Below, piece after piece: positions 13,179 through 51,925 of a DNA stretch of 64,000 bases. The stretch spans positions 186,001-250,000 of the forward strand of contig PHBU01000007.1 in the NCBI GenBank assembly GCA_002840685.1, given 5' to 3'. The stretch is from Chloroflexi bacterium HGW-Chloroflexi-6 (GTDB taxonomy: Bacteria; Chloroflexota; Anaerolineae; Anaerolineales; Villigracilaceae). Position numbers and translations under genes: made by a program. Under the pieces are notes generated by a model that saw nothing but the letters and a program-made list of their open reading frames with translations, ran no database searches and was not told where the DNA came from. The stretch's first letter is position 1. Each line of letters begins with the position of its first letter.

Positions 13179-13295
13179 CTGCCAGATAAGAATTAGGAAA
13201 AATAAAATTGAAGTACGCTAAGATTATAGCATGTCAGGCTGTGATGCCCTCAATCGAACATGCCAACCCGTCAAATTTATTTTATAATACCTTCC

Positions 13296-24898: not shown

Positions 24899-25360
24899 TC
24901 ATTTTTGTTTAATGCCGACCATATCCAACAAACGACGCAGGCCGGCCAGGTAAGAATTCAGTTTGATAACGGGGTCAACCAGGTTTTCGCCCAGGAATTC
25001 GGTCGTGCCGCGCAGGGTATTGATGGTCTCATTGGTGGCTTCGAGCATGGGCCGCACTTCGTTTTGCAGCAAGTTGACCAGGCTCGAAACCTGTACGATC
25101 AGCACGATCAACGCCACCCCGATCACGAGCGACTCTAATGCCATGAAGATAATGAAGATATCCCTGATCTTGCTGGTTGTTTCACCTTCGGCCATCATCA
25201 AAAAAACGATCGAAAGGATGATCAGAACCAAAAGCAAGACCCCGCCGATGGAAAGCGTGGCCACCATCTTGCGGCGTTCACGTTCGACAGCCGGGTCGAC
25301 GGGTGGCGGGGTGGTTTTTTCAGGGGTTGGGCTTGTTGACATAGAATAGTTTGATTCCAT
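24899..25360 (-). CDS. membrane protein of unknown function
   Basis: two TM segments, DUF948-like helical tail. Confidence 0.5.
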   Translation of the reverse strand: MESNYSMSTSPTPEKTTPPPVDPAVERERRKMVATLSIGGVLLLVLIILSIVFLMMAEGETTSKIRDIFIIFMALESLVIGVALIVLIVQVSSLVNLLQNEVRPMLEATNETINTLRGTTEFLGENLVDPVIKLNSYLAGLRRLLDMVGIKQK

Positions 25361-25405
25361 AAAAATATTATAGCATAACCTGCTACACGATTAACCAGTC
25401 AAATC

Positions 25406-27211: not shown

Positions 27212-27240
27212 TCTGACCTCCTAAAAAATAAGTTCTGACA

Positions 27241-27272
27241 AAAAATATCGCCCATTGCGATTGCTTTGGGCG
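27241..27272 (-). terminator. leader terminator upstream of aspS
   Basis: minus strand CGCCCA-AAGCAATCGCAA-TGGGCG-ATA-TTTTTT. Confidence 0.6.
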
Positions 27273-27299
27273 ACTGGCTGCGGTAGGTGGGATACAGGC

Positions 27300-27392
27300 T
27301 CAGGCAGGCAAAATTCGCCTGCCAGCGCGACAGCAGTCGGCCAGCAGAGAATTATTATTATCGTCCTTGAAAAAACTTGCAAATGTATCCAT
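27300..27392 (-). CDS. candidate aspS leader peptide MDTFASFFKDDNNNSLLADCCRAGRRILPA
   Basis: 30-codon ORF 9 nt downstream of minus-strand TATAAT (27402-27407); DDNNN run; followed by terminator and RBS AGGAGG of aspS. Confidence 0.6.
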   Translation of the reverse strand: MDTFASFFKDDNNNSLLADCCRAGRRILPA

Positions 27393-27527
27393 AATAGGCT
27401 GATTATAGCACAATCTATCTTGGGGTATAATAGATATCCGTCCGCTGATTTACGGGCAGGTTTTGATTCTTGCGATGAAAAACCGTCCTACTACGCTGGC
27501 AAAACTTATCGCCCGGATAAAAATTCT

Positions 27528-51814: not shown

Positions 51815-51925
51815 AATCCTGTATTGGTTCTGTTACAGGATGTCTCCATACCGATACAGGGTTGAGCCGGCCCCGGTGCTATAATTTTTGCAGTCTTCGA
51901 GACCAAACCAGGCGAGGTGCGCACC

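Follow-up and report, generated by a model that had tools for sequence, protein, structure and literature searches.

A candidate Asp/Asn leader-peptide attenuator upstream of the aspartyl-tRNA synthetase gene aspS in Chloroflexota

In the ilvGMEDA and thr attenuators, which control biosynthetic operons, codons for two or more amino acids lie in a single leader. For aminoacyl-tRNA synthetase genes, attenuators have been described for trpS and leuS in Streptomyces, which, like that of E. coli pheST, combine a short leader ORF containing cognate codons, antiterminator and terminator hairpins, and a synthetase gene downstream (PMC1262725), while a His leader has been described before hisS paralogs in bacilli (PMC2965389). 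The T-box also controls synthetase genes through a choice between terminator and antiterminator that responds to uncharged tRNA; it binds the tRNA directly and needs no leader ORF, and T-boxes are reported in Chloroflexi by a T-box survey (PMC2494555). Leader-peptide attenuation is textbook biology, but we found no described case for Asp/Asn, aspS or Chloroflexota in the literature searched; the treatment of synthetase-operon attenuation by Lopatovskaya et al. 2010 (Mol Biol 44:128) may mention one for Asp/Asn or aspS. Likewise, no Rfam family describing an Asp/Asn leader was found.

The window analysed here is a 64,000-nt stretch of Chloroflexi bacterium HGW-Chloroflexi-6 (GTDB lineage Bacteria; Chloroflexota; Anaerolineae; Anaerolineales; Villigracilaceae), namely positions 186,001–250,000 of contig PHBU01000007.1 in assembly GCA_002840685.1. 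Its minus strand carries, in this order, an extended -10 box, a leader ORF, hairpins, an intrinsic terminator and aspS (Table 1). The arrangement shares the parts of the pheST, trpS and leuS attenuators, and differs from them in its proposed specificity for Asp plus Asn, in occurring in Chloroflexota, in having a leader start codon predicted to lie a few nucleotides from the transcription start and, within the window clade, in that one synthetase would serve two tRNAs. Like ilvGMEDA and thr it has a multi-amino-acid leader; unlike them, it would control a tRNA-charging gene or an aspS/gat/asnS cluster. Like the hisS leader of bacilli (PMC2965389), it would be a case in which a leader peptide attenuates a gene of the synthetase family in bacteria other than Proteobacteria and Actinobacteria; the amino acid and the phylum differ.

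Table 1. Features of the aspS leader region, in window coordinates
Feature	Coordinates	Strand	Basis or detail
Extended -10 promoter box TGCTATAAT	27402..27410	-	TATAAT at 27407-27402 inside box
Leader ORF, 30 codons, MDTFASFFKDDNNNSLLADCCRAGRRILPA	27300..27392	-	ATG at 27392, TGA at 27302-27300
Putative regulatory codons GAC GAT AAT AAT AAT (Asp Asp Asn Asn Asn)	27351..27365	-	Read from sequence
Hairpin P1, CTGCTGGC-CGAC-TGCT-GTCG-C-GCTGGCAG	27319..27347	-	Covariation; -17.9 kcal/mol
Second hairpin GGCAGGC-GAATTTT-GCCTGCC, adjoining the leader stop and overlapping the P1 3' arm	27303..27323	-	Sequence
Candidate antiterminator, 5' strand CGACTGCTG	27331..27339	-	Complementary to 27280-27271
Candidate antiterminator, 3' strand CAGCCAGTCG, which shares bases with the left terminator arm	27271..27280	-	Complementary to 27339-27331
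Intrinsic terminator GTCGCCCA/TGGGCGAT followed by ATTTTTT	27240..27274	-	TCGCCC and GGGCGAT invariant in 13 clade leaders
Shine-Dalgarno AGGAGG of aspS	27217..27222	-	Sequence
aspS, bacterial-type aspartyl-tRNA synthetase, 590 aa	25439..27211	-	NF001750 and TIGR00459 above cut-off

The TATAAT element, leader ORF and terminator all lie within one base of the minus-strand positions given in the initial annotation, and AGGAGG precedes aspS as stated there. Its terminator hairpin, placed at 27272-27241, is present with the core CGCCCA (27272-27267)-N12-TGGGCG (27254-27249)-ATATTTTTT and ends at 27240, not 27241. The pairing it proposed between a segment just after the DDNNN codons and a strand overlapping the left terminator arm is borne out by CGACTGCTG and CAGCCAGTCG. 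Missing from that account was the strong local hairpin P1 (27347-27319), which directly follows the D/N codons and whose inner strand is the same CGAC that would serve antitermination.

Comparison across the family, based mostly on metagenome-assembled genomes (MAGs) of which some are incomplete, reveals that the leader ORF is widespread. A search for aspS at E<=1e-100 recovered the gene in 91 of 99 genomes, giving 86 usable upstream regions, and the named loci L041-L120 place the compared group in Anaerolineae. A short ORF with at least six D/N in 10 residues occurs in 60 of the 86 regions; the same criterion is satisfied once in 86 on the antisense strand and in 0.17% of shuffles, and none of 5000 dinucleotide shuffles of the window's own 300-nt upstream region yields such an ORF. 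Moreover, D and N together account for 31% of residues in 74 promoter-proximal ORFs picked regardless of D/N content. Codons within the D/N runs comprise 545 RAY, one RAR and seven YAY; the pyrimidine at the third position in 545 of 546 RAN codons is strong evidence that the encoded Asp and Asn, not an A-rich spacer, are the target of selection.

All four genus relatives retain promoter, leader ORF, hairpin, antiterminator and terminator, with runs of DANN, DANN, DNN and NDDDN beside the DDNNN of the window, and homologous leaders extend to most of the family, a typical one beyond the window's clade reading MNGNISFANNNNNDNDDNSHVAGRSFAG. The D/N run and the hairpin, on whose conservation the initial annotation had made its proposal depend, are thus both conserved in genus and family. 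Among 13 leaders of the window's clade, D/N codons fill 37 of 65 positions immediately 5' of P1 (five codons per leader) but 25 of 328 positions elsewhere (p=3e-18); 13/13 place the start of P1 in frame 0, and in 12/13 the stop follows 15 codons later. The runs are short in this clade and weak or absent in some members: the leader ORF of G015 has no D/N run, and G063 probably lacks one, inspection having found no D/N leader there and, as sole candidate, a short ORF without a detected terminator. In the genus relative G001 (L007), the leader ORF runs into the terminator without meeting an in-frame stop, a TGA being present in another frame; this reflects either a natural variant or an assembly error. 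Beyond the family, D/N-rich upstream ORFs occur in several families of the class Anaerolineae (f5, f10, f22, f48 and others) and were not seen in most other Anaerolineae families examined. Two genomes, G018 (G018:C10:274448-282187; L123, L159) and G037, contain clusters in which gatB separates two aspS paralogs and asnS follows the second of these; both paralogs of G018 are preceded by D/N leaders of their own, NNNNNNNDD and NNNDDNDD.

The promoter is positioned in a distinctive manner relative to the leader ORF. In the 74 promoter-proximal leader ORFs of relatives, TATAAT lies 6-21 nt 5' of the start codon, preceded by a TGN extension in 72, a placement that speaks against a transcription start downstream of 27300, which by the initial annotation would have refuted its proposal. 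Transcription is predicted to begin near 27395, about 3 nt 5' of the leader ATG. Because the distance from TATAAT to the start codon is 6-12 nt in 59 of the 74, the leader ORF is probably translated with almost no 5' untranslated RNA, that is, as a nearly leaderless message; among the longer spacers, 14 of 15 contain AGG or GGA, a possible Shine-Dalgarno. When the window's genome was searched for the promoter-plus-D/N-run pattern, the sole match was the aspS leader; the pattern picked out no further D/N leader, neither on gat genes nor at any other site. A longer-run version of the pattern matched 16 of 300 genomes of the phylum, 15 of them from the window's family. The window holds four TGCTATAAT boxes against 0.44 expected. 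One of these lies 6 nt before the start of the gene after aspS (25360-25375, minus strand), so this organism may commonly make leaderless mRNAs; two others (13223-13231, minus strand; 51877-51885, plus strand) each lie 5' of a possible gene start.

The RNA elements were compared in an alignment of the 13 clade leaders. In P1, 85.9% of cells are paired and 7 of 12 pairs are changed on both sides, a covariation reached by 0/500 shuffles, with slid versions of the hairpin scoring far lower. For the antiterminator the figures are 90.1% paired cells and 2 of 7 pairs with changes in both strands, a modest covariation, since 13/500 shuffles reach two changed pairs. P1 would sequester the antiterminator 5' strand when no ribosome is stalled. 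The terminator arms are nearly invariant in 13/13 clade leaders and therefore offer little covariation evidence either way. A generic terminator scan scores the window's hairpin weakly and the whole-leader fold has a z-score of only -1.5, single-sequence folding being uninformative; the case thus rests on conservation rather than on single-sequence folding. Additionally, FA(N) codons before the run in the wider family appear by inspection complementary to GGGCGAA of a later segment, and this complementarity would account for the conserved FA and GRS residues at the RNA level.

The position of the terminator also bears on the possibility that the leader peptide is translated and acts on aspS translation, by reinitiation or by masking of the start region, rather than on termination. 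Leader ORFs have been proposed to act in this way elsewhere (PMC4833913), and in the window the leader stop lies 88 nt before aspS. Yet in 13/13 clade leaders the ORF and aspS are separated by a terminator whose arms hardly vary and which has a T-run, a terminator is also detected 3' of nearly all other family leaders scanned, the antiterminator overlaps this terminator and not the Shine-Dalgarno, and the leader-to-aspS distance among D/N leaders, spread from about 67 to 261 nt, fits tight coupling badly. Translational control is accordingly considered highly unlikely.

Instead, comparative and computational tests favour the Asp/Asn-tRNA-sensing attenuation of aspS put forward in the initial annotation, and we regard it as very probable that the leader is a ribosome-mediated transcription attenuator that adjusts aspS to the availability of charged tRNA-Asp and charged tRNA-Asn. 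We infer the following course of stalling, termination and induction. RNA polymerase would start just 5' of the leader ATG and a ribosome would begin translating the leader. With Asp-tRNA and Asn-tRNA plentiful, the ribosome would pass the DDNNN codons, P1 would hold the CGACUG strand, the GUCGCCCA/UGGGCGAU terminator would form, and most transcripts would stop short of aspS. A shortage of either charged tRNA would stall the ribosome on the D/N codons, where it would cover the P1 5' arm and free CGACUG(CUG) to pair with CAG(C)CAGUCG, so that the left terminator arm is blocked and aspS would be transcribed. As a local structure of considerable stability, P1 would be expected to be the earliest to form whenever no ribosome sits on its 5' arm. 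Asn would be sensed along with Asp because the genome is without AsnRS; judging from gene content, AspRS would charge tRNA-Asn with Asp for amidation by GatCAB.

This switch was modelled in 72 leaders on truncated transcripts, with ribosome-covered RNA masked and upstream pairing of the left terminator arm scored. When only RNA downstream of the ribosome is folded, the mean antiterminator probability is 0.94 with the ribosome across the D/N run and 0.11 with it at the stop codon. The antiterminator is lost two or three codons past the last D/N in 46 of the 72 leaders, and the mean offset of the loss from this point is 1.33 codons versus 5.6 with random placement. When upstream RNA is permitted to pair, the means are 0.65 without a ribosome, 0.91 with a stalled one and 0.26 with one at the stop. 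For the window's own leader, the corresponding antiterminator values are 0.80 (none), 0.80 (stalled) and 0.79 (terminating ribosome), so that equilibrium folding separates no switch states, and the same ambiguity affects most other leaders of the window clade. When full-length transcripts are folded, the terminator usually dominates at equilibrium in every state, which means that antitermination would have to be kinetic; full-transcript equilibrium folding was dropped as a switch test, with truncated transcripts used in its place, and the model suggests that the switch depends on co-transcriptional order.

The coincidence of codons and structure weighs against a direct tRNA- or ligand-binding riboswitch of the T-box kind, in which the D/N codons would be incidental. 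T-boxes regulate many synthetase genes and do occur in Chloroflexi (PMC2494555), but the pyrimidine preference at the third codon position requires translation, the D/N position tracks the structural switch point, and Rfam searches at the gathering threshold and at relaxed thresholds (E up to 5) return a tRNA elsewhere as sole match, with no match to the leader and no T-box consensus structure. Such a riboswitch is barely credible here.

Gene content bears on which tRNAs the attenuator could serve. A search for asnS gave no match in G000, the window's genome (completeness listed as 100%), in its genus or in the genomes sampled from genera g12, g19 and g25, an absence less secure for any single genome than as a clade pattern, given the nature of the assemblies. 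The genome contains one aspS, gatA and two gatB (G000:C1:415677-417119 and G000:C2:215859-217313) above cut-offs; its other aspS-like match is LysRS and not a second aspS. Thus, of the gene content that the initial annotation had linked to its proposal, namely absent asnS and present gatCAB, the absence of asnS and the presence of gatA and gatB hold, while the 105-aa ORF in the gatC position gave no match under the strict threshold applied. In the set of genomes with completeness of 90% or more, two gatB rows occur in 14 of 16 without asnS versus 1 of 59 with asnS (p=3e-12, a value that overstates the number of independent events in related genomes), and the lone exception, G009, resembles one gene split over two contigs. 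The two gatB are possibly parts of separate amidotransferases for tRNA-Asn and tRNA-Gln. The initial annotation's view that Asn codons make sense with a non-discriminating AspRS agrees with the absence of asnS from the window's genome, but Asn codons also occur in relatives with asnS and so do not by themselves show non-discrimination. A His and a Gly that we take to be signatures of non-discriminating AspRS are present in the window's enzyme; the same residues occur in relatives with asnS, and they were rejected as a diagnostic. Two near-complete genomes of the same order (G252 and G280, family f2) show no AspRS match at E<=1e-150 and may use a divergent AspRS.

The neighbourhood of aspS raises the alternative that the window's lineage responds to Asp-tRNA alone and has kept its Asn codons as a remnant of an ancestral aspS-asnS operon. 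In many relatives with asnS, 29-179 nt separate this gene from the preceding aspS, as measured in 21 genomes; in G092, G012 and G062 it lies several kilobases downstream, the order in G092 being leader-aspS-gatA-gatB-asnS. The window's aspS has no asnS behind it and is followed by a terminator-like hairpin and then by another promoter box. Runs are also richer in N in relatives with asnS (328 N, 159 D) than in those without (32 N, 26 D), and shorter in the asnS-less clade. Against loss of Asn sensing, Asn codons are kept in nearly every window-clade leader that has a run, and GatCAB-dependent Asn-tRNA still depends on AspRS, which makes sensing of Asp alone unlikely. The mixed D/N runs themselves fit both control of two synthetases and control of one synthetase supplying both tRNAs. 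We lean moderately towards an undescribed class of attenuator, with a nearly leaderless leader ORF, in which one non-discriminating AspRS charges both of the tRNAs that are read, those for Asp and Asn, such that aspS would answer to direct charging with Asp as well as to the Asn route through GatCAB.

Collectively, the leader most likely works like the classical trp/pheST type, with a new specificity (Asp/Asn) and in a new phylum. If this is true, ribosome-mediated attenuation reaches a phylum where T-boxes are all that the T-box survey reports (PMC2494555), and the many natural variants make the rules of codon position, hairpin placement and leaderless initiation testable. It would also show how bacteria without AsnRS, or with adjacent aspS and asnS, couple synthetase supply to two tRNAs: the cell probably makes more AspRS when charged Asp- or Asn-tRNA runs short.
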